Positions 18,075 to 53,671 of a stretch of DNA of 64,000 nt are shown in pieces; the first letter of the stretch is position 1; the number at the start of each line of letters is the position of its first letter. Both the position numbers and the translations under genes were made by a program. Source of the stretch: Deltaproteobacteria bacterium (GTDB lineage Bacteria > Myxococcota_A > UBA9160 > UBA4427); assembly GCA_029261855.1 (NCBI GenBank), contig JAJDAN010000055.1, forward strand, positions 1 to 64,000. Reading direction: 5' to 3'. Under the pieces are notes generated by a model. It was not told the origin of the DNA. It saw only the letters and a program-made list of their open reading frames with translations, and did not search any database.

Positions 18075-20225
18075 CTAGCCCGCCACACCGTAGACGTTCA
18101 CGGGAATCGCACTCTGACGCGCGAGTCCCGTGGTCGCATCGAAGTGACGATCGTCCCGGATCAGGTGCTGAACGTTCGTGCCCTTGTCGCGGGGCCCGCC
18201 GGGGTCTGCGGGATTGCCCCAACCGAACGCGAGCGCCACGACGTCCTGGCGCAGGTCCGGCGATGCCTCGAGCACGGCCTCGACCCGACCGGCGTCGCTC
18301 TCCACGGTCACCAGCTCGCCCGCCTCGAGGCCCAGTCGTCCGATCGCATCGGGATGCATCAACAGCGGGTTGAAGGGCCGCTTGGCGCGCAGGGACGGAA
18401 GGTTGTGCCCCTGGGTGCAGTAGACCTCTTTGGTGCGGTAGGTGATCAGGCGGAACGCGAAGGCGTCGTCTTCTTCGTACGACCCCGCCCAGCTCAGCGG
18501 CTCGGCGCGCACCTCCCGCAGCTCCGTCAGCACAGCCGGATGCCCGACGGCCATGCGCTTGTCCGGGTGCCCGATCATGTTCGGGATCACGCCACCGGCA
18601 ACCATCTCGGGCTCCCCGAACACGGCTCCACTCGGGTGCCTGCGAATCTCGTCGAGCGACACCGTGCCCCGCCCGAACTGAGCCTCCAGCATCTCGTCCG
18701 AGCTGGGCATGCTGTCCGGCGTGAGTCCGCCAACACGTAGAGGCAGCCCCATGCGACCGGCGAGCCCCCAGAAGACTTGCCATTCCTCCAGGCAGCCGGC
18801 CGGCGGATCGATCAGGGCCGGCGTGTACTGGCTGAAGGGCACGGGATAGGTGGAGTCCATCAGACGCGGCAGATCCGCCCGCTCGAAGGGGTGCTTCATG
18901 GCGAAGACGTAGTCGGCGTACTCGACGGTCGCGGTCGCGAACAGGTCGTTGACGACCAGGAGCTCGAGGCTCTCGAGCGCGCGGAGCGTCGACTCCGGTT
19001 CCGACAGGACCATCGCGGGGTTGCCGCCGTTGACGATCAGCGCCCGGATCTGGTCGGCACCCGGCGTAAGGATCTCGTCGGTCAGCGTGTTCGTCGGCAT
19101 TTCCGTGTAGGCACCGAAGAGCCCGGGCAGGGCCGACACGCCGCGCACGCGCGACTTCGGCAGCTCGGGCAACGGCACGGGCCCCATGTCTTCGTCGAAG
19201 TGACGACCGAGGGGCCCCTCGGTCCGGATCATGCCCCCCTCGCGATCGTAGCGACCGCAAAGTGCGTTCAGGATCATGACGAGTTGGGTCGCGAGGTTGT
19301 GGTGCGGGGCCATGTGCATGCCCGTACCACTGGTGGCCCCGCCGGTGCGCGCCGTCGCGAAGCAGACCGCCGCCGCCTCGATTTCCGCAGCGGGAACACC
19401 ACTTCGTCGGGCCACGTAGTCGAGGTCGAAGTCCCGCAGCGCATCGCGCAGGCCGTCGACGCCGCTGACGTAGCGCGCGACGTAGTCGCGATCCATCAGG
19501 TCGCGATCCAGGATGACCCGCACCATCCCGGCGAGCAGGGTGGCATCCTCTCCGGGCCGCAGCTGCAAGTGGTGATCGGCTCGCCTGGCGACGTCCGAGC
19601 GCCGCGGATCGACGACGATGAGCTTGGCGCCACGCTGGCGCGCGTCGTTGAGCCGGGCGGTGGGATTCGATTGGGGCATGTTGAGCTGGTGGGACGCGAT
19701 CGGGTTCGAGCCGACGAACATCACGACCTCGGCGCGATCCACGTCGAGCAGGCTCGCCGGAACCGGGCCGCCGAACAGGCGGTTGCCCGCGATGGTGAGA
19801 CTGGGCGAGTCGATCGTGAAGGACGTGTACATGCGCTTCGAGCCCAGGGCCTGGACGAATCGCCGCACGAACCACGGCCCCCCAGCCGCACTCCGGTGCC
19901 CGCCGCAGCCGGTATAGACGGCGACGGAATCCGGTCCGTGCTCCGCCACGATCTCATTCAGCCGCAGGGCGACCTCGGCGAGGGCTGCGTCGGGGGCGAT
20001 GTCGACGAGACCGGCTTCCGTCCTCTTCTGGGACGAGAGCAGCCGATCCGGGTGGTGGATCCGCTCGACCTCGGCCCGGCCCTTCTGGCAGGTGTACCCC
20101 TGGGAAACCGGGTTGTCCCGGTCCCCGCGAACCGCGACCACGCGGTTGCGATCGGGATCGACGTCGACCTCGACGCCGCAAAACACGTGGCAGAAACGGC
20201 AGAATGACTTCCGGGACTCGATCAT
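18075..20225 (-). CDS. Molybdopterin-dependent oxidoreductase with N-terminal [4Fe-4S] site
   Basis: A 716-residue DMSO-reductase-family catalytic subunit. The N-terminus carries Cys-x2-Cys-x3-Cys (CRFCHVFC) and a later Cys in GYTCQKG, the ligands of a [4Fe-4S] cluster. Molybdopterin-binding segments include VMFVGSNPIASHQL, KLIVVDPRRSDVARRAD and QIRALIVNGGNPAMV. The C-terminal dinucleotide-binding domain begins near FAFRLITYRTKEVY. There is no Tat signal, so a cytoplasmic location is likely. No electron-transfer subunit is adjacent. Starting at the ATG 20223-20225 puts the cluster at the N-terminus; earlier in-frame starts overlap the divergent gene at 20338. The substrate is unknown. Confidence 0.87.
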   Translation of the reverse strand: MIESRKSFCRFCHVFCGVEVDVDPDRNRVVAVRGDRDNPVSQGYTCQKGRAEVERIHHPDRLLSSQKRTEAGLVDIAPDAALAEVALRLNEIVAEHGPDSVAVYTGCGGHRSAAGGPWFVRRFVQALGSKRMYTSFTIDSPSLTIAGNRLFGGPVPASLLDVDRAEVVMFVGSNPIASHQLNMPQSNPTARLNDARQRGAKLIVVDPRRSDVARRADHHLQLRPGEDATLLAGMVRVILDRDLMDRDYVARYVSGVDGLRDALRDFDLDYVARRSGVPAAEIEAAAVCFATARTGGATSGTGMHMAPHHNLATQLVMILNALCGRYDREGGMIRTEGPLGRHFDEDMGPVPLPELPKSRVRGVSALPGLFGAYTEMPTNTLTDEILTPGADQIRALIVNGGNPAMVLSEPESTLRALESLELLVVNDLFATATVEYADYVFAMKHPFERADLPRLMDSTYPVPFSQYTPALIDPPAGCLEEWQVFWGLAGRMGLPLRVGGLTPDSMPSSDEMLEAQFGRGTVSLDEIRRHPSGAVFGEPEMVAGGVIPNMIGHPDKRMAVGHPAVLTELREVRAEPLSWAGSYEEDDAFAFRLITYRTKEVYCTQGHNLPSLRAKRPFNPLLMHPDAIGRLGLEAGELVTVESDAGRVEAVLEASPDLRQDVVALAFGWGNPADPGGPRDKGTNVQHLIRDDRHFDATTGLARQSAIPVNVYGVAG

Positions 20226-20337
20226 CGGGGGATGATCGCACAATCCGGCCGGGCCGCAGAGCGCAGATGTGCCCCCGTATACACCCTGCGCGAGCATCCA
20301 CGGTGGATAGTCGAGGCGATGCCCCCAGCCCGCGAGG

Positions 20338-23300
20338 ATGTCACCGATGCCCCCTGAAGCAACCAGCAAGCACCTCCGGAACGCAACCGAGCTGACCCTC
20401 GTCGCAGATGTAAAGCCTGGCCTGGTCGAGGTTCGCGAGACCCGCAGCTATGCGACGCGCCTGGGGATCCTGCTCGGCACCCTGCAGGCCATCCGGCAGA
20501 AGGCGGTCGAGGCTTCGCTGCGCGAGGCACCGTACGCCGGACCGCTCGAGAAGCTGCAGGCCCTGCACTTCGTGCGCTGGACGCTGCTCGACAACGGGAC
20601 CAAGCTGATGCTCGCGGTCTCCTTCGACGGTCCCTGGGAACCCTACATGCGCCGGATCGTCGACGTGGCCGGCCCACTGCTCGACGTCATCCTGTGCAAC
20701 TGCGAGGGCTACGACGCCCACGCATCGGACCAGGGGCACACGAAGTTCGTCGAGTGGGTGCGCGCCCACCAGGTCGAAAGCCAGTTCTTCCACGCGAACG
20801 CGCCGACCCTCACCGCCGACGACCTGCGCTTCCTGTCGCTGCTCGAATCCCAGCAACGACTCGAGACCGACCTCGAGAAGTTCGACCGGCAGGCCACCGA
20901 CCTGCGCGTGCGCGACTTGTCGCGCCGCCTCGACCCGACTCCCGCGCTGTCTGGCGCGGAGCAGGAGCGGGTCCTCGAAGCCGAGATGCGCGCGCTCGGG
21001 GCGCTCCACCGGTTGAGCGCCCTGTTCCCGGCGAGCGAGCCGTCGCGGGGCGCACTGCACCTGAAGCGCACGGCCCACATGATCCTCCCGCGACTGGAGG
21101 ACGGACCCTTGCCGGACCTCCAGGAGAAGCTGCACGCGTCGGCCCTCGCCTGGTACCGCGACCTGCCCTCCCGCGCGATCGCGGTCCCTGGACCCGACCA
21201 GGTCAACGACGCAGCGATCGTCCAGGGCAATGTCCTCGAGCCCTACGTCGACAGGACCCACGGCTGCCTGCTGTTGCTCCGAATCGCCGATCGCGCGCGC
21301 GCCAGCGCGTTCTTGAGAGCGCTCGCCGGGCGGGTGACGATCGCCGCCGGCGCGGCGGGCCCGGCCTTCAACGTCGGTTTCTCCTTCGCGGGACTTCGCG
21401 CTCTCGGACTGACCGACGCCGAGCTTCAGAAGCTGCCGAAGGAGTTCCGCGAGGGCATGGAGGCGCGTGCCGGCTTCCTGGGAGACGTCGGACCGAGCCA
21501 CCCCGACTTCTGGGCACCGCCGCTGCTGGCCGACGGAACTGCCGTCGAGCTCTCCGCAGTCGACCTCGTCATCCAGGTCCAGGCCCAGGCGGACGCGAGC
21601 GACGACGACCACGTCTGGACGGACCAGCATCCGCTCTACGGGACTGTGACGACGCTGCTGACGGACTCCGGGCTCGAGCAGCTGGCGGTCGAAGTCCTGC
21701 GCCGCGACCCGCCGGACGCACGAGGCATCGTCCGCGAGCACTTCGGTTATCGCGACGGGATCAGCCAGCCGAAGCCGGGCGGGCCCGCGAACGATCCCGA
21801 CACGGTTCCCGTCGGCGAGATCCTGCTCGGCTACGCCAACGAGCGTGGAGACGACGGCAAGGTCTTCGATCTGCTGAAGGACGGGACCTTCCTCGTCATT
21901 CGCAAGCTCGAGCAGGACGTCGGCCGCTTCCGCCAGCTGCTCTCGGGCTACTCGCGCCTTCCCGCGAAGCAGGAGCAGCTCGCCGCGCGCATGATGGGTC
22001 GCTACCGCGACGGTCGGCCCGTGGTCGACCCGAACCTCGGCGCAGACGCCAACGACTTCCGCTTCGACGTCGAGAACCAGACGCCCTGCCCGCCTTCGGC
22101 CCACATCCGGCGAGCGAATCCCCGCACCGAACGTCCGCACCCCACGCCCGCCGGTACGCGCCCCGCCCCCACGCCGCGGATCATGCGCCGGGGCTTCTCG
22201 TACGGCAGCCCGTTCTCGCCGGACACCCTGACCGAGCCACGCGGACTCTTCTTCATGGCGTACAACGCCAGCATCGCCGAGCAGTTCGAGGTGATCCAGC
22301 GCTGGATCTCGGGTGGCAACAGTACGGGCGTGCTCAGCGCAGATGCCGACCCGTTCCTGGGGCTGCGCAGGCCGGGGGCTGGCCAGCGTGTCTTCCGCAG
22401 CGCGACGACGGCTTCGCCCGTAGCGGGGGCAGAGCACGGCGTCGAACGCGTCGGGCTGGGGACGGAGCCCCTCGTCTCGCTGCGCTGGGGCATGTACTTG
22501 TTCGTGCCGTCCACCGTCGCCCTGGAACAGCTGGCCGATCGCCTGTTGCAGGCACCGCGGCTGCCGGAAGGCGACCCCGCCCGCGGCCGCGTGCTGATCG
22601 CCAAGCTCGACGCCACCCTCCGGGTCCTCGCGGCGACCCAAGGCGAAGCGGCGGCGAACGCGCGCATGCGCATCGAATGGAAGAAGCTGATCGAGGACGT
22701 CTCGACGCAAGACGCCGCTCAGGACCTGTGGGCCGCTGTCCGCGACCTCGGCGGTGTGCTCCGCACCCCCTACGGCGTGCTGCTCGGCAGCGCCGAACAC
22801 GTCATGACAGCCTTCCGCGACGACGACCGCTTCTCGGTACGAGACTACTGGGAACGAATGAACGATTCACTCGGTGCGCTCTATCTCGGCATGGACCCTG
22901 CGCCCCAGGTGATGGAGGACGGCGGCGACCGCAACGACCTCGACGCGCGCTACCACGCCGAGGTTTCGAGCACGCGCTACGCCGAGGAAGCCGCCGCCCC
23001 GAACGCCTGGATCGCGGGGATCCCGCGATCGGACGCCTTCGCCCTGGCACTCGCCGAAACCAGCCGACAGCTCGCCGGCATCGCGAGCGCGCAGCCCGGC
23101 GCTCGCATCGCAATCGATCTGCGCGGCCTCGTGGGGAACGTTCTCGCCCGGCTGTCCCGGCACTGGTTCGCCCTGCCCGACGGAGACGAGATGCAGGCGG
23201 GGGGCCCCGTCGAAGCGCGGCCGGACGGTGGGGTACCGGCCCACTGCCCCGACAACTTCCTCGCGACGGCCCGCTACATCTTCTCTCCGAACCCCACCGC

Positions 23301-23961
23301 ATTCGTCGTCGCCGAAGGCCGGGCGAGGGGACACGCACTGCTCGACGCTGCGAAGCGCTACGTGCAGAACGTGGCGGATGGCGTCTCGGATCTGCCCCCC
23401 GGCACATTGTTCGCGGAACTGATGCCCACGCCGCCCAACCCGCCCGGCGCGATCGATGTCGATCGCATGGCTCGCACCCTGGTCGGCTCGGTGCATGGCT
23501 TCGTGGGGCCGTGTTTCGGCACCTTGTCCTCGGTCCTGTACTTGTGGCAGAAGACGGGGCTCTTGTGGCGAAACCAGTATGCACACCGCTGGGCGCGAGA
23601 TCGACTCGGGGAGGCTGCGGCCCTCGAGGGGCTCGAGCGTGCGCTGGTGGCCACGATGCAGCTTCGGCCCCTGCCCTACATCCTCCACCGAACCGTGACG
23701 CGCTCGACGCGTCTGGGTGGCGTGGATCTCGCGCCCGGCGACCGCGTCGTACTCGGGCTGCTGTCCGGAACGCGCCAGCGAAGGCCGGACGACGGCGAGA
23801 TTCTCTTCGGGGGCACCTATGGCGGTGACAATGCCCACGCCTGCCCCGGGCGCGAGCTGGCCATGGGCGTGATGCTGGGAACGCTGACGAGCCTGCTCGA
23901 CTTCGGTCGCTACCGGTCCGAGGCCCCGTTGTTGCTGTCCACCCTCCGGCCGGGCAGCTGA
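20338..23961 (+). CDS. Fusion of a DyP-type heme peroxidase and a cytochrome P450-like domain
   Basis: A 1207-residue single frame with three parts. Residues 1-150 form a small alpha/beta domain of unknown role (LHFVRWTLLDNG, LLDVILCNCEGY). Residues about 270-740 are a dye-decolourising peroxidase: catalytic GxxDG motif at 470-474 (FGYRDGISQP) and the likely proximal heme ligand H589 in AHIRRANPR, followed by RIMRRGFSYG. Residues about 800-1207 look like a P450: early motif LGGVLRTPYGVLLGSAEHV and the heme-thiolate loop YGGDNAHACPGREL with C1169. The P450 helix-I acid/alcohol pair and the ExxR motif are not evident (TMQLRPLP stands where ExxR is expected). There is no signal peptide. The DyP part might supply or use peroxide-derived equivalents for the P450 part, which is speculation. 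Confidence 0.88.
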   Translation: MSPMPPEATSKHLRNATELTLVADVKPGLVEVRETRSYATRLGILLGTLQAIRQKAVEASLREAPYAGPLEKLQALHFVRWTLLDNGTKLMLAVSFDGPWEPYMRRIVDVAGPLLDVILCNCEGYDAHASDQGHTKFVEWVRAHQVESQFFHANAPTLTADDLRFLSLLESQQRLETDLEKFDRQATDLRVRDLSRRLDPTPALSGAEQERVLEAEMRALGALHRLSALFPASEPSRGALHLKRTAHMILPRLEDGPLPDLQEKLHASALAWYRDLPSRAIAVPGPDQVNDAAIVQGNVLEPYVDRTHGCLLLLRIADRARASAFLRALAGRVTIAAGAAGPAFNVGFSFAGLRALGLTDAELQKLPKEFREGMEARAGFLGDVGPSHPDFWAPPLLADGTAVELSAVDLVIQVQAQADASDDDHVWTDQHPLYGTVTTLLTDSGLEQLAVEVLRRDPPDARGIVREHFGYRDGISQPKPGGPANDPDTVPVGEILLGYANERGDDGKVFDLLKDGTFLVIRKLEQDVGRFRQLLSGYSRLPAKQEQLAARMMGRYRDGRPVVDPNLGADANDFRFDVENQTPCPPSAHIRRANPRTERPHPTPAGTRPAPTPRIMRRGFSYGSPFSPDTLTEPRGLFFMAYNASIAEQFEVIQRWISGGNSTGVLSADADPFLGLRRPGAGQRVFRSATTASPVAGAEHGVERVGLGTEPLVSLRWGMYLFVPSTVALEQLADRLLQAPRLPEGDPARGRVLIAKLDATLRVLAATQGEAAANARMRIEWKKLIEDVSTQDAAQDLWAAVRDLGGVLRTPYGVLLGSAEHVMTAFRDDDRFSVRDYWERMNDSLGALYLGMDPAPQVMEDGGDRNDLDARYHAEVSSTRYAEEAAAPNAWIAGIPRSDAFALALAETSRQLAGIASAQPGARIAIDLRGLVGNVLARLSRHWFALPDGDEMQAGGPVEARPDGGVPAHCPDNFLATARYIFSPNPTAFVVAEGRARGHALLDAAKRYVQNVADGVSDLPPGTLFAELMPTPPNPPGAIDVDRMARTLVGSVHGFVGPCFGTLSSVLYLWQKTGLLWRNQYAHRWARDRLGEAAALEGLERALVATMQLRPLPYILHRTVTRSTRLGGVDLAPGDRVVLGLLSGTRQRRPDDGEILFGGTYGGDNAHACPGRELAMGVMLGTLTSLLDFGRYRSEAPLLLSTLRPGS

Positions 23962-23995: not shown

Positions 23996-26900
23996 TCAGG
24001 CTCGGGAAGCCGTCGCGAGCAGACGTCGGGCTTCGGCCTCGTGCCAGTCCATGTGCATGTCGGTGAACGCATTGCGTGCGCGGGTGGCGAGCTCGATCGC
24101 AACCTCGGACTGGCCGCGACCGGCGTAGAGGTCGGCGAGCCGCAAGCGGGTCATCGCCTCCTCGCGACGCGAGTCGCGCGATCGGCCGCCCTGCATGGCG
24201 CGTTCCAGATAGTATTCCGGCTCTTCGAGTCCGCTGACGCCGCGCGCCGCCAGGCGCGCCAGTCCCCGACAGGCCATGCCCTCGCCGACCCGGTCGAGCT
24301 TGTCCTGGGCGAGCACGAGGGCGTGTTTGCCGTACAGCTTGCCCAGGTCGTCCTGCCCGGCACTCGTCATGGCGTCGGCGAGCCAGCCGTAGTTCAGGCT
24401 GATGTAGAGGCACATCCCCTTCTCGACGAGCCATTCCGTGGACTCGCGGATGACCTCGATCTGACGGGCATCGCGCTCGAGCATCCAGCGCGCGTACGCG
24501 ACTTCCGAACGCGCGATCCCGAAGACGTATGGACCGTTGACCCGGGCCGCCTTCTCCTGGGCGAGGCCCGCTACCTGCATGACCTCGTCCCATCTCCCTT
24601 GCCAGATGAGGCCGACGGCCTGGAGCGCCAGCACCGAACCCTCCATCGCGAAGTTGCCGCCCCGGAGTGCCCGGATCGCGTCACTGAAGCCCTCGTTCGC
24701 CTCGTCGAAGCGACCCTGGTCCGCCAACACGAAGCTCCGGCAGGCCAGCGCGTAGGCGGATCCGATGGGAGGCGCGCCGTCCGTGGACCGCGACTGACGC
24801 TGCTTGCGGTCGAGGGCCTCATCGAGACGGCGCAATGCTTCCTCGTAGTTGCAGGCGGCCGCCTGGCTCTGGCCCAGGGTCCCGTGCAGCTGGGCGATCA
24901 GGCGCGAGTTCCCGAGCTCGTGCGCGATGGGCAGCCCGTCGTCGAAGTGGGCGATCGAATCCAGCTGCTCGCCCAGGGAGTAGTTCATGAACCCGAGCCA
25001 GTGGTGCGCGTGGGCCAGGGCGTCCAGGTCTTCCAGCTCGCGCGCATAGCCCGCCGCGCGATTCAGGATCTCCAGGCGCTCGCGCGACGGGCTGTAGACG
25101 CACGCCACGGCCCAGCGCATGCAGATGGAGATCCAGCGGCGGCGGTTCTCAGCCGTCTGCGACAGCTGATCTACCGCTCGCATGGCGACGTGATACTGCT
25201 GGCGCGCGCGGTCGAGGGTGGCCGACCCCAGAGCCTTATCCCCGGCCCGCTCCGCGTAGAACGCGGTCCGCTCGGGATCCGCAGCACCCGCATAGTGGTA
25301 GGCGAGGGATTCGAAGGGCACCTCGCCTCCATCGCTCTCCACCCGCTCCTCGAGCGCTTCGGCGACCCGACGGTGGAGTGCCTGACGCTGTCGCAGGCGC
25401 ACCGAGTTGTAGACGACGTCCCGTGTAATGCCGTGCTTGAACCGAAGGCTTCCCGGATGCTCGGCTTCGTGGATGAGGTCGGCGTTCGCAAGCGCCTCGA
25501 GCACCGAATGGCCGATCCGCCGGCCCCCGATCTGCTCGAGCAGCCAGGTCGGAATCACATTCCCGATGACGGCGGCGGCCCCCACCAGCTCGGCGAGCTC
25601 ATCGGGCAGGCGCTCCGCTCGCGCTTCGATCAGCCCGTGGAGCGTGACGGGAACTTCACTGGTCCCGCTGCCGGGAGCATCGTCCACCCATTCCGAGAGG
25701 GACTGGCATAGCTCTTCGACGAACAGTGGATTTCCGCCACTGCGTTGGTGGATGCGCGCCGCGATGCCGAGGTCGATGGGTCGCGGAACGAGCGTTTCGA
25801 TCGCGCGCGTGCACTCGTCCCGGTTGAACGGCGCGACCTCGAGGATCTCCGTCTCGCCCGCGACCACCGGGGCGACCGGATCGATGACCCGCGACGAGAT
25901 CAGGACGAGCATCGGCTCGTCGGTCAGCGAACGCGTCAGGATGTCGACGACCTTGCGCGACGCATCGTCGATCCACTGCCAATCGTCGATGAAGACCAGC
26001 ATCGGGTGTCGCCGCGCCAGGGTCAGGAAGAGATCGCTGAGTGCCGTCGCGACCGCGTCATCGCCGCCCGCGACCGGCGTAGCCACCTCGCCCGGCGCCA
26101 GCAGCGAGAGGAATTCCGACAGATGCTTCTCGAGGCCCAGCTCCCGCAGCCCCGCTTCCACCAGGGACGCCGCCTCTTCACCCGACCCGATCCCCGCCAG
26201 GTCGAACTGCTGACGGACCATCCCCAGAAAGGGCTGCAAAGGCGCCACGCCGCCGTAGCTCTCGCAGTAGCCACGCTGGACGCGGAACTCGCCCTCGACC
26301 CGGCGGATCAGTTCGTTGGCGCTGCGGGTCTTCCCCACGCCGGGGTCGCCGACGAGGGTCACGACCCGGGGCTTGCCGCGCCGCGCCTGCCGGGCGAACT
26401 CCTCCAGTCGTCGCAGCTCGAAGTCGCGACCGATGAAGGGCGTCAGCCCCTGCATCCGTCGGGCCTCGAAGCGGTTCGCGACGTCGGTGCGGTCCCGTAC
26501 CCGGTGCGCGTGGATCGGGTCGGGCTTTCCCTTCAAGGAGAGGTCGCCCAGATCCTCCGACTGGAAGAACGCACGCGCGCCGCGCAGGCTGCTCTCGCTC
26601 ACCACGAGCTCGTCGGGTCCGGCCTGGGAGCAGAGACCGGCGGCAGTGTTCACCGCGTCGCCGACCAGCTCATAACGCCCGAGCACCAGGTCGCCGACTC
26701 CTGCCATCACCAGACCGGAATGCACCCCCGAGTGCATGCGAACCGAAAAGCTGCCGGCGAGACTCGAGTCGACGACGACTTCGCGCGCCGCAGCGTGCAG
26801 GTCGAGACCCGCCTGGATGGCGCGCCGGACATCGTCTTCGTGCGGCGTCGGCAGACCGAAGACGGCGACCACGCCGTCGCCGTGAACCTGGTTGACGACA

Positions 26901-27094
26901 CCACCATGGTGACGGACGACCCGTTCCGCGGCCGACTTCACATCGTCCATGACCTCGGCCAGGATCTCCGGGTCCGAAATATGACCGAGAAAGGTGGACG
27001 CACACAGATCCGAGAACAGGATCGTGACGTGTCGCCTGATCCCCGCCGCGGACCTCCCGCTTCCCGAGTCCTGCCCATCGTCATCCGCCCGCAT
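23996..27094 (-). CDS. Class III cyclase-like domain, AAA-type ATPase and TPR regulator
   Basis: A 1032-residue soluble signalling protein. Residues about 20-200 are a class III nucleotide cyclase homology domain with metal-binding aspartates D29 (FSDLCAST) and D73 (HGDGVVAVFG). The purine/transition-state segment reads VGDAVNTAAGL, so the usual arginine of N-x3-R is glycine (G153). Residues about 220-500 are an ATPase with Walker A GDPGVGKT (249-256) and Walker B MLVFIDDWQWIDD. The rest is helical tetratricopeptide-like repeats (SYALACRSFVLADQGRFDEA, AHAHHWLGFMNYSLGEQ). This is a common layout in Actinobacteria, rhizobia and Myxococcota, though cyclase activity is doubtful here. The gene stands alone and converges with the DyP-P450 gene. 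Confidence 0.85.
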   Translation of the reverse strand: MRADDDGQDSGSGRSAAGIRRHVTILFSDLCASTFLGHISDPEILAEVMDDVKSAAERVVRHHGGVVNQVHGDGVVAVFGLPTPHEDDVRRAIQAGLDLHAAAREVVVDSSLAGSFSVRMHSGVHSGLVMAGVGDLVLGRYELVGDAVNTAAGLCSQAGPDELVVSESSLRGARAFFQSEDLGDLSLKGKPDPIHAHRVRDRTDVANRFEARRMQGLTPFIGRDFELRRLEEFARQARRGKPRVVTLVGDPGVGKTRSANELIRRVEGEFRVQRGYCESYGGVAPLQPFLGMVRQQFDLAGIGSGEEAASLVEAGLRELGLEKHLSEFLSLLAPGEVATPVAGGDDAVATALSDLFLTLARRHPMLVFIDDWQWIDDASRKVVDILTRSLTDEPMLVLISSRVIDPVAPVVAGETEILEVAPFNRDECTRAIETLVPRPIDLGIAARIHQRSGGNPLFVEELCQSLSEWVDDAPGSGTSEVPVTLHGLIEARAERLPDELAELVGAAAVIGNVIPTWLLEQIGGRRIGHSVLEALANADLIHEAEHPGSLRFKHGITRDVVYNSVRLRQRQALHRRVAEALEERVESDGGEVPFESLAYHYAGAADPERTAFYAERAGDKALGSATLDRARQQYHVAMRAVDQLSQTAENRRRWISICMRWAVACVYSPSRERLEILNRAAGYARELEDLDALAHAHHWLGFMNYSLGEQLDSIAHFDDGLPIAHELGNSRLIAQLHGTLGQSQAAACNYEEALRRLDEALDRKQRQSRSTDGAPPIGSAYALACRSFVLADQGRFDEANEGFSDAIRALRGGNFAMEGSVLALQAVGLIWQGRWDEVMQVAGLAQEKAARVNGPYVFGIARSEVAYARWMLERDARQIEVIRESTEWLVEKGMCLYISLNYGWLADAMTSAGQDDLGKLYGKHALVLAQDKLDRVGEGMACRGLARLAARGVSGLEEPEYYLERAMQGGRSRDSRREEAMTRLRLADLYAGRGQSEVAIELATRARNAFTDMHMDWHEAEARRLLATASRA

Positions 27095-50518: not shown

Positions 50519-51679
50519 TCAGTCCATGCGGAGCGGCAGGGAGCCAAAACCCCGGATCACGGTGGACTGGAGGCGCGTGGGTGCGGTCTCGCCGGGCTCG
50601 AGGGTCGCGTAGCGATCCAGAAGCGCGTTCAGGGCGATCCGGCCCTCGAGCCGAGCGAGTCCGACACCGAGGCAGAAGTGCACCCCCTGACCGAAGCCCA
50701 GATGCTTCTTCTCGGCGCGTTCGGGGCGGTACTCGCCGGCCGCCGCGAAGGCCTCCGGGTCGCGATTCGCGGCCCCGTAGGAAACGATCACCCGGGAGTC
50801 CTTGGGGATGCGGGTGCCGCGCACCACTACGTCCCGGGTCGTCTGCCGGCCCAGATTCTGGACCGGCGTATCGAAGCGGACGGTCTCCTCGATGGCCAGA
50901 GGCACCAGGCTGCGGTCGTCGCGCAGTCGCTTCCACAGGTCCGGCCGCTGGGACAGGATGTGCAGCTGGTTCGAAATGAGATTCGTCGTCGTCTCGTTTC
51001 CGGCCACGAGCAATACGATGAAGAAGCCGTCGAGCTCGGCGGGCGTCAGCCGGCGACCGTCGATCTCGGCCTGCAGCAGGGCCGACACCAGATCGTCCTT
51101 CGGGTCGCGGCGGCGCTTCTCGGCGAGCTCCTTGAAGTAGCCCACCAGCTCCATCGCGCAGGCGGTCAGCTCGGGCGTGGGCTCGGACTCGAGCAGGCCG
51201 ACGAAGGCGTCCGACCACCGACGGAAGTCCGACAGGCGCTCGGGCTCGACGCCGAGCATCTCGGCGATCACGACGACGGGCAGCGGGATCGACAGCGAAG
51301 GGACGAGATCCAGCTCGCCCGTCGGCATTTCGGCGAGTAGCTCGCGCGCGATGGCTTCGATCCGCGGCTCGCTCGCGGCCACGCGCCGCGGCGTGAAGGC
51401 GCGGTTGACGAGAGCCCGCAGCTGGTCGTGATGGGGCGGGTCCGTGGCCGGAAGCGCCGCAGGAGGATTCAGGTTCGCAGACGGCGCCGGGCCTGGCCCC
51501 TGGGCGCTGCTGAAGGTCTCCGGGTCGATGAGCGCCGCGAGGACGTCGTCGAAGCGGGTCAGGACGTAGCCGCCGTAGCGCGGCTCGCGGTAGACCGGGT
51601 TCTCGCGCCGGAGCGCTTCGTAGAAGGGATACGGGTCCTCGCGGAACTCGGCGGAGAAGACATCGGGATCGGACGTCAC
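50519..51679 (-). CDS. Cytochrome P450
   Basis: A 386-residue bacterial class I P450. The helix-I motif VAGNETTTN has the acid/alcohol pair, ExxR is EETVR, and the heme-thiolate loop is FGQGVHFCLGVGLARLE. The helix-B region contains PALPATDPPHHDQLRALVNRAFTPR, the usual substrate/heme contact. The GTG start at 51679 has GAGGAG seven bases upstream and gives the standard N-terminal length; the longer in-frame start has no site. No ferredoxin is adjacent. In this lipid-catabolic context a hydrophobic substrate is likely. Confidence 0.9.
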   Translation of the reverse strand: MTSDPDVFSAEFREDPYPFYEALRRENPVYREPRYGGYVLTRFDDVLAALIDPETFSSAQGPGPAPSANLNPPAALPATDPPHHDQLRALVNRAFTPRRVAASEPRIEAIARELLAEMPTGELDLVPSLSIPLPVVVIAEMLGVEPERLSDFRRWSDAFVGLLESEPTPELTACAMELVGYFKELAEKRRRDPKDDLVSALLQAEIDGRRLTPAELDGFFIVLLVAGNETTTNLISNQLHILSQRPDLWKRLRDDRSLVPLAIEETVRFDTPVQNLGRQTTRDVVVRGTRIPKDSRVIVSYGAANRDPEAFAAAGEYRPERAEKKHLGFGQGVHFCLGVGLARLEGRIALNALLDRYATLEPGETAPTRLQSTVIRGFGSLPLRMD

Positions 51680-51805
51680 GCGTTGCTCCTCGGTTTTGGA
51701 ATGGAGTCTGGGCGGAGGAAACGGAAGCATGGCACAGCTCGCTTCGCGGTCGTGGCGCCCCATTCGCGTATCATCGAGCGTCCAGCCGCGCGAGGGAGTT
51801 CCAGA

Positions 51806-53671
51806 ATGAGCGGTGCCACGGACATGCCGCCGGCGGCGAATGCAGCGGACGAGAACCCCACGGCGGCGCGCGAAGTCCTCGCGTTCGTGTGGGGATACTG
51901 GCGTGCAGTCCCGCTCCGCTTCGCCGGCATGCTGCTCGGCACGACTCTCGGCGTGGTGCTCGAGGTCCAGATCCCGCGCCTGTCGGCGGACCTGGTGGTG
52001 GTCGTCGAACAGCTGCTGCGGGACGCGGCCGCCCCCGCCGACGCCTGGCGCACCGCGGGCTGGCTGCTCGGCGTCTTCGGCGCGGTCTTCCTCGTCAAGC
52101 AGCTCTATCTGCGCAACTGGATGTACCTGGCCTCCCAGGTGATGCAGCAACTGGTGGCCGATGGCTTTCGGCGGGTGCAGCGTTTCAGCCAGGAGTGGCA
52201 CACCAACCACTTTGCCGGATCGACTCAGCGCAAGATCACACGTGGCATGTGGGCCTACGACTCCCTCGCGGACACGCTGGTGATCGATCTGGGTCCGGCC
52301 CTGGGTCTGCTCGTGGGCTTCACCATCGCGATGGGACTTCGCGACCCCGCCCTCGGCCTCTACTTCGGAATCGCGGTCAGCGTCTTCCTGGCGGCGAGCA
52401 TCGCCATGTCGATCCACTACGTGGCACCGGCGAACGTACTGTCCAACGACGCGGACACGACGGTGGGGGGCGCCCTCGCCGATTCCATCACCTGCAACAC
52501 GGTCGTGAAGTCCTTCGGGTCCGAAGAACGCGAAGACGAGCGTTTCCACATGGCGAGCCAGGACTGGCGGCTGAAGTCGCGACGGGCCTGGCTCCGTTCG
52601 ATGGATGCGGGCGCCGTTCAGTCGGTGCTGCTGCTCTGCCTGCTCGGCGGCTTGCTCGGGATCGTCCTGTTGCGAACGGAAGCGGCCACCGATCGCGTCG
52701 AGGGAGCGGTCTACGTGATCGCCACCTATCTGGTCGTGCACAGCTACCTGCGCAACATCGGCTGGCAGGTGCGCAACGCCCAACGCGCCATCAACGAGCT
52801 CGACGATCTCGTCGAGATCGCTCGGACCGAGCCGCAGGTCGAGAACGTCCCGGCCGCGCCGTCGTTCCAGCCGGGCCCCGGTGCCATCGACTTCGACGAC
52901 GTGCGCTTCGGCTATCGAAACCAGCCCCGCCCGATCTTCGAGAAGCTCTGCGTGCACGTGCGGCCGGGGGAAAAGCTCGCCCTGGTGGGCGAGTCCGGCG
53001 CGGGCAAGAGCACCTTCGCGAAGCTCGTCCAGCGCCTCTACGACATCGACGCCGGGCGCATCTCCATCGACGGTCAGGACGTCTCGCAAGTGACCCAGGA
53101 GTCCCTGCGCACGGCGATCTCGGTGGTCCCCCAGGAGCCGATCCTGTTCCACCGCTCCCTCGCGGAGAACATCGCCTACGCGCGTCCCGGGGCGTCCCGA
53201 GACGAAGTGATTCGCGCGGCACGACAGGCCCACGCCCACGAGTTCATCGACAGGCTCGACCACGGCTACGAAACGCTGGTGGGCGAGCGCGGCGTCAAGC
53301 TGTCAGGAGGCGAACGCCAGCGGGTCGCCATCGCCCGCGCGATCCTGGCGGACGCGCCGATCCTCGTGCTCGACGAAGCGACGTCGAGTCTCGACTCGCT
53401 GACCGAGCACCTCATCCAGGAAGCGCTCACCACCTTGATGCGCGGACGCACCGCCATCGTGATCGCCCATCGGCTGTCGACGATCCGCCAGGCGGACCGG
53501 ATCCTGGTGTTCGACGACGGCCACATCATCGAAGAGGGATCCCACGACGAACTCGTGCGCCGCGCGGGCGGACGCTACCGCGAGCTCGTCCAGATGCAGG
53601 CATTCGTCGTCGACGCGCTGGAAGAACCAGAAGTAGAACCAGAGGCGCAGGACTCGAGAGAGTCCGCGTGA
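51806..53671 (+). CDS. ABC exporter half-transporter (membrane plus ATPase)
   Basis: A 621-residue half-transporter. The membrane domain covers residues about 30-340 with the coupling segment VVKSFGSEEREDERF. The ATPase has Walker A GESGAGKST, Q-loop VVPQEP, signature LSGGERQRVAIA, Walker B ILVLDEATSSLD and IAHRLS. As a single gene it should form a homodimer. The acidic C-terminal tail (EEPEVEPEAQDSRESA) is unusual for the family. It is divergent from the P450 gene and 39 bases upstream of a SnoaL-like gene. The ATG at 51806 follows GAGGGAG. Confidence 0.9.
   Translation: MSGATDMPPAANAADENPTAAREVLAFVWGYWRAVPLRFAGMLLGTTLGVVLEVQIPRLSADLVVVVEQLLRDAAAPADAWRTAGWLLGVFGAVFLVKQLYLRNWMYLASQVMQQLVADGFRRVQRFSQEWHTNHFAGSTQRKITRGMWAYDSLADTLVIDLGPALGLLVGFTIAMGLRDPALGLYFGIAVSVFLAASIAMSIHYVAPANVLSNDADTTVGGALADSITCNTVVKSFGSEEREDERFHMASQDWRLKSRRAWLRSMDAGAVQSVLLLCLLGGLLGIVLLRTEAATDRVEGAVYVIATYLVVHSYLRNIGWQVRNAQRAINELDDLVEIARTEPQVENVPAAPSFQPGPGAIDFDDVRFGYRNQPRPIFEKLCVHVRPGEKLALVGESGAGKSTFAKLVQRLYDIDAGRISIDGQDVSQVTQESLRTAISVVPQEPILFHRSLAENIAYARPGASRDEVIRAARQAHAHEFIDRLDHGYETLVGERGVKLSGGERQRVAIARAILADAPILVLDEATSSLDSLTEHLIQEALTTLMRGRTAIVIAHRLSTIRQADRILVFDDGHIIEEGSHDELVRRAGGRYRELVQMQAFVVDALEEPEVEPEAQDSRESA

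Follow-up and report, generated by a model that had tools for sequence, protein, structure and literature searches.

Domain Organization of the Fusion Protein

The analyzed window, a stretch of 64,000 nucleotides, contains a gene for a protein (P0001) that joins an N-terminal domain (N), a DyP-type peroxidase domain and a divergent P450 domain in one chain. Directly 3' of it, and tail to tail with it, lies a gene for a class III nucleotide cyclase-AAA_16-TPR protein (Table 1). The first-pass annotation had described a single uninterrupted frame of 1207 residues and one chain with two distinct heme domains. The frame proved to be intact, and the two domains were recovered by independent routes, the DyP part by NCBIfam and PDB matches and the P450 part by the family profile and the AF2 model. 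From the intact ligand residues we infer that both domains bind heme. The GC content at codon position 3 was 0.89, 0.88 and 0.85 over the three domains in order, high and even across the junctions. A gene judged by eye to be molybdopterin-type oxidoreductase-like (18075-20369, minus strand) is divergent from the fusion gene, and a second, separate P450-like frame is present elsewhere in the window (50522-53302, minus strand).

Table 1. Position and supporting evidence of the features discussed in the text. Coordinates refer to the window unless a locus (L) is given.
Feature	Position	Strand	Evidence or remark
N-DyP-P450 fusion gene (P0001)	20338..23961	+	Single open frame, 1207 aa + stop
N-terminal alpha+beta domain (ferredoxin-like, dimeric-barrel type), residues 14-154	20377..20799	+	AF2
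Helical region linking N-domain to DyP, residues 155-262 (~100 residues)	20800..21123	+	AF2 secondary structure
DyP-type peroxidase domain, about residues 270-735	21145..22542	+	TIGR01413, PDB 7anv
GxxDG motif, residues 470-474 (FGYRDGISQP; distal Asp473)	21745..21759	+	D473, G474 invariant in 9 fused proteins
Proximal heme His589 (AHIRRANPR)	22102..22104	+	Invariant in alignment
Distal RR of RRGxxYG, residues 617-618	22186..22191	+	Invariant in alignment
Divergent P450 domain, residues 746-1207	22573..23958	+	Profile to PDB P450s; AF2 pLDDT 88.7, Z 29.9
I-helix without conserved acid (P1058 at that position)	23458..23556	+	Alignment, AF2 model
K-helix MxxR (1107-1110) replacing ExxR	23656..23667	+	Alignment of fused proteins
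Heme-thiolate Cys1169 (DNAHACPGREL)	23842..23844	+	H1167, C1169 kept in all aligned
Class III nucleotide cyclase-AAA_16-TPR gene	23996..27094	-	Tail to tail with fusion gene
Reverse-order P450-N-DyP proteins, 1517-1567 aa, sphingomonads	L108:4098-8729, L109:7664-12214, L121:3556-8256
Catalase-family + N-domain + DyP cassette, plasmid/chromosomal	L075:2753-9794, L076:4801-9027, L119:6707-13696

A domain of about 150 residues had been proposed ahead of the DyP part. The domain itself was found again, its extent was not, as the N-terminal region reaches residue 262. The AF2 model of this region had a pLDDT of 76 (whole model). The best structural matches of the N-domain (Z 5-7.4) were almost all dimeric alpha+beta barrel proteins of the antibiotic-biosynthesis-monooxygenase, mutarotase and polyketide-cyclase types, a modest similarity that is suggestive only. 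The Pfam search with the N region alone gave no match, the N-domain profile matched nothing significant in the PDB and Foldseek with the N-domain model returned no match at E ≤ 0.001. Elsewhere, two tandem N-domain genes precede a DyP gene in Bradyrhizobium CB82 (L078:5641-6978), and the N-domain is duplicated inside proteins (L027).

By its motif, its heme His and distal Arg and its profile similarity, the central domain is a DyP-type peroxidase with predicted peroxidase activity. The GxxDG motif and the likely heme histidine H589 had both been pointed out in the first-pass annotation; the former is present in 14/14 aligned fused proteins with D473 and G474 invariant, and the latter is invariant in the aligned fused proteins. 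NCBIfam TIGR01413 was matched with E=4e-23 at 82.2 bits, which is under its cut-off of 100.5, and the Pfam Dyp_perox_C score of P0001 was at or just above its cut-off. The closest PDB match was an ancestral D-type DyP (7anv, E=2e-28).

The C-terminal domain was not matched by Pfam p450, neither in a search with P0001 nor with the P450 region alone. All 60 listed PDB matches of the family profile were P450s (best 1.3e-5). Foldseek with the AF2 model returned 1579 matches at E ≤ 0.001, and the 50 that were listed were all P450 chains. In the structural comparison of the same model, 1000/1000 chains had Z ≥ 8, and the top match reached Z 29.9 with an rmsd of 2.8 over 341 aligned residues. On the basis of this model, the C-terminal heme-thiolate domain is predicted to have a P450 fold, which answers the question raised earlier of whether this half of the protein is a P450 at all. 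No particular P450 subfamily was singled out by the Foldseek or structure-match lists. The thiolate loop noted earlier carries Cys1169, which is conserved in the aligned fused proteins. P450s are recognized by two signature motifs, of which ExxR is one (PMC3990721). Its Glu is absent in all 16 fused proteins, replaced by Met in 15 and by Ile in one, and we therefore refer to a divergent P450-fold domain and not to a canonical P450. The meander is shortened as well, the stretch from the K-helix strands to the Cys loop being too short for a normal one, and the fused proteins lack an acid at the position where the I-helix would activate oxygen.

Homologues and Recurrence of the Domain Pairing

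Homologues with the same domain order, as had been expected, were found: including the window, 16 loci share the order N-DyP-P450, with pairwise identities down to 28% among the 14 that were aligned. The hosts comprise the window genome and two more of its class, Sneathiellales, Pseudomonadales, Sphingomonas, Novosphingobium, Henriciella, other sphingomonads and Hyphomonadaceae. In the Pseudomonadales locus the N-part is encoded on a different contig, at its edge. One copy on a Sphingopyxis plasmid (L074:4959-10409), counted among the 16, lacks the N-part and the first half of the DyP domain, and its start is immediately adjacent to a Tn3 transposase.

The first-pass annotation had considered that a sequencing or assembly error might have joined two genes. 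This explanation is ruled out by the 16 same-order loci, which include those of the named strains Sphingomonas changbaiensis NBRC 104936 and Novosphingobium sp. B 225. The even coding GC across the domain junctions also argues against it, nothing was found in its favor, and we regard its probability as negligible. That N-DyP-P450 is a genuine three-domain fusion architecture is near certain.

In a tree of 38 DyP-domain sequences, which included 14 of the 16 fused proteins (those then known), the fused proteins formed one clade with a support of 100/100. A separate clade (100/99) was formed by three proteins in which the order is reversed, P450-N-DyP; accordingly, at least two fusion events took place, in opposite orders. 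In Pfam, the scores of the reverse-order proteins were above the cut-offs of p450 as well as of Dyp_perox_C. In many genomes N, DyP and P450 are encoded by separate neighboring genes, for example as three consecutive genes in G039. The separate and reverse-order P450s mostly retain ExxR and the meander, likewise miss the I-helix acid and, unlike P0001, match PF00067 (p450). As the modules have been joined at least twice and occur as neighboring genes elsewhere, the DyP/P450 pairing looks functional and not accidental. The pairing frequencies are not unbiased, since the queries from which the locus sample came included the P450 part.

Hyphomonadaceae also contain similarly large frames (about 1500-1620 aa) that match DyP. 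Four 'viral' contigs from IMG/VR (L070-L073), possibly bacterial DNA binned as viral, share a run of consecutive genes for N-domain, DyP and P450, which in L071 is followed by a glutaminase.

Genomic Context

The cyclase gene matched the Pfam families Guanylate_cyc (1e-17), AAA_16 (1e-24) and TPR. A cyclase-AAA-TPR gene lies directly 3' and tail to tail at 16/16 fused loci, the last two of which were examined after the pattern had already been noted. This neighbor had escaped the first-pass annotation, as had the reverse-order fusion and the split operons. Only three long homologues of the cyclase gene were found in the window genome (7 Mb), so that a chance adjacency is unlikely. Both metal-binding Asp residues are conserved in the cyclases, and the window cyclase has Gly at a position where many homologues carry the Arg expected for catalysis. 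An AAA gene of Bradyrhizobium CB82 was considered as a relative and dropped, as it is without a cyclase domain. A Crp/Fnr gene is near the fusion at 13/16 loci. None was seen beside the fusion gene of the window, where Crp-like TGTGA-N6-TCACA sites were fewer than expected by chance and none was near the fusion gene.

In a further group of N-DyP operons, a catalase-family protein takes the place of the P450. Some of these operons also carry genes for oleate hydratase, 3-hydroxyacyl-CoA dehydrogenase and thioesterase; the three cassettes in Table 1 include oleate hydratase and/or 3-hydroxyacyl-CoA dehydrogenase. These fatty-acid genes adjoin the catalase-type operons and not the fused loci. A Thr before the distal His is a hallmark of catalase-related hydroperoxide enzymes, and the partner catalases have Ala at this position. 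The catalase-partner profile found no relative in the PDB, and a link to the coral-type catalase enzymes is therefore at best putative.

Proposed Function and Alternatives

We propose that P0001 is a two-heme bacterial enzyme with a reductase-free, peroxide-driven P450 and a lipid substrate, linked to a cyclase/Crp response; we give this proposal as a whole an even chance of being correct. In the DyP domain, His589, Asp473 and the Arg pair 617-618 would serve the reaction with H2O2 or an organic hydroperoxide, and Compound I would form. The P450 domain most likely works without a reductase, for which the P0001 chain contains no domain, and would use or rearrange a (hydro)peroxide as CYP74/LDS-type P450s do. 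The argument for such an enzyme is that the ExxR Glu, the meander and the I-helix acid are lost but the Cys ligand is kept. Judged from these residues, the P450 part is most likely peroxide-dependent; their loss, together with the exchange of P450 for catalase in related operons, is indirect evidence compatible with peroxide-driven chemistry. The two hemes may act in sequence, and the order of reactions given here is likewise conjectural. The substrate would most likely be an oxidized lipid or fatty acid, and lipid (hydro)peroxides are suggested by two analogies, one to the catalase-type operons and one to the CYP74/LDS enzymes (PMC10813956, PMC13049297). The product would probably feed a response under the adjacent nucleotide cyclase and a Crp/Fnr regulator, and either the product or the peroxide state may be coupled to cyclic-nucleotide control. 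A hitherto unrecognized lipid-mediator cassette, in which the oxidized-lipid signal made by a self-sufficient diheme DyP-P450 synthase would pass through the cyclase-AAA-TPR protein as sensor and a cyclic nucleotide to Crp/Fnr, is a tentative idea and a doubtful one. If true, bacteria would have an equivalent of the way in which prostanoids and fungal oxylipins arise from a cyclooxygenase combined with a P450.

Since ExxR and the meander also serve heme binding and folding, the P450 part may instead be weakened or dead. It would then be a degenerate, non-catalytic heme- or ligand-binding module whose fold serves docking, sensing or stability, while the DyP domain alone does the work. The consistent loss of the Glu, the shortened meander and the missing Pfam match all fit this explanation. 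We nevertheless hold it to be unlikely: Cys1169 and H1167 are kept across proteins that are only 28% identical, the I-helix and the Cys loop are retained, and the pairing with DyP recurs with P450s that keep ExxR.

Two further alternatives accept a working enzyme and assign it another role. DyPs classically oxidize aromatic dyes and lignin models, and in keeping with this, P0001 might oxidize an aromatic compound or another secondary metabolite in two steps, with the DyP domain making a radical that the P450 couples or oxygenates. No result of this analysis points to aromatics, however, and with fatty-acid genes in the related operons and no core biosynthetic genes apparent among the mostly unannotated ORFs around 12 fused loci, this route appears quite improbable. 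Much the same low probability, if not slightly lower, attaches to a role in the detoxification of H2O2 or lipid hydroperoxides, controlled by cyclic nucleotides and Crp, in which the protein makes no signal or defined product. The partnership of the peroxidase module with catalase-family proteins elsewhere, the adjoining cyclase and the frequent proximity of a Crp/Fnr gene would agree with it, but for bulk detoxification a fusion with two hemes and a conserved cyclase of its own seems elaborate.

Comparison With Known Systems

To our knowledge, fusions of a heme peroxidase and a P450 are known only from the fungal cyclooxygenase-like group. No description of a DyP-P450 fusion was found in the 5.39 million open-access papers searched (subscription journals and database annotations lay outside this search), and the architecture is apparently undescribed so far. 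DyP would be a second peroxidase superfamily joined to a P450, and the fusion would include a natural P450 without the ExxR Glu. Which substrates DyPs use in nature is largely unsettled; a conserved, repeatedly evolved DyP-P450 union with a dedicated cyclase makes this question directly testable. The fusion beside a cyclase gene, conserved in at least 16 genomes, suggests a peroxide-driven enzyme or signaling system that is as yet unexplored.

P0001 shares GxxDG, the proximal His and the distal Arg with C/D-like DyP-type peroxidases, which are also its nearest PDB entries, and differs from them in being joined to a P450 and a family-specific N-domain. A second catalytic domain is likewise attached in the DyP-PFL fusions of fungi and bacteria, where DyP is joined to a pyruvate-formate-lyase-like domain (PMC5041501). 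There, however, the DyP belongs to type B and has a glycyl-radical domain as its partner.

On the side of the P450, the CYP152 fatty-acid peroxygenases (P450BSbeta) are peroxide-driven P450s without the acid-alcohol pair. They were among the top Foldseek matches of the P0001 P450, as were many others; membership in CYP152 is not supported, as the I-helix has Gly1057-Pro1058 instead of the CYP152 Arg-Pro. Enzymes of the CYP74 clan dispense with both O2 and redox partners, act on fatty-acid hydroperoxides and have an I-helix region that differs from that of monooxygenases (PMC10813956). A likeness of the P0001 P450 to the CYP74 clan (AOS, HPL, DES, EAS) is suggested by the lost O2-activation residues and the gene neighbors, not by sequence membership; the ERR triad, whose Glu is missing in P0001, is present and catalytically important in CYP74.

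A loose parallel in architecture is found in the fungal dioxygenase-P450 fusions, which have been termed diheme proteins (PMC13049297). The likeness in principle to the LDS/Ppo fusions, recognized in the first-pass annotation together with the non-DyP nature of their peroxidase, is borne out. In LDS, PpoA and other DOX-CYP proteins, as in P0001, a heme peroxidase-type domain is followed by a heme-thiolate P450 in one chain. The fungal N-part is a cyclooxygenase-like animal-type peroxidase, whereas that of the bacterial P0001 consists of an unrelated DyP and an extra alpha+beta domain, and its P450 is without the ExxR Glu.
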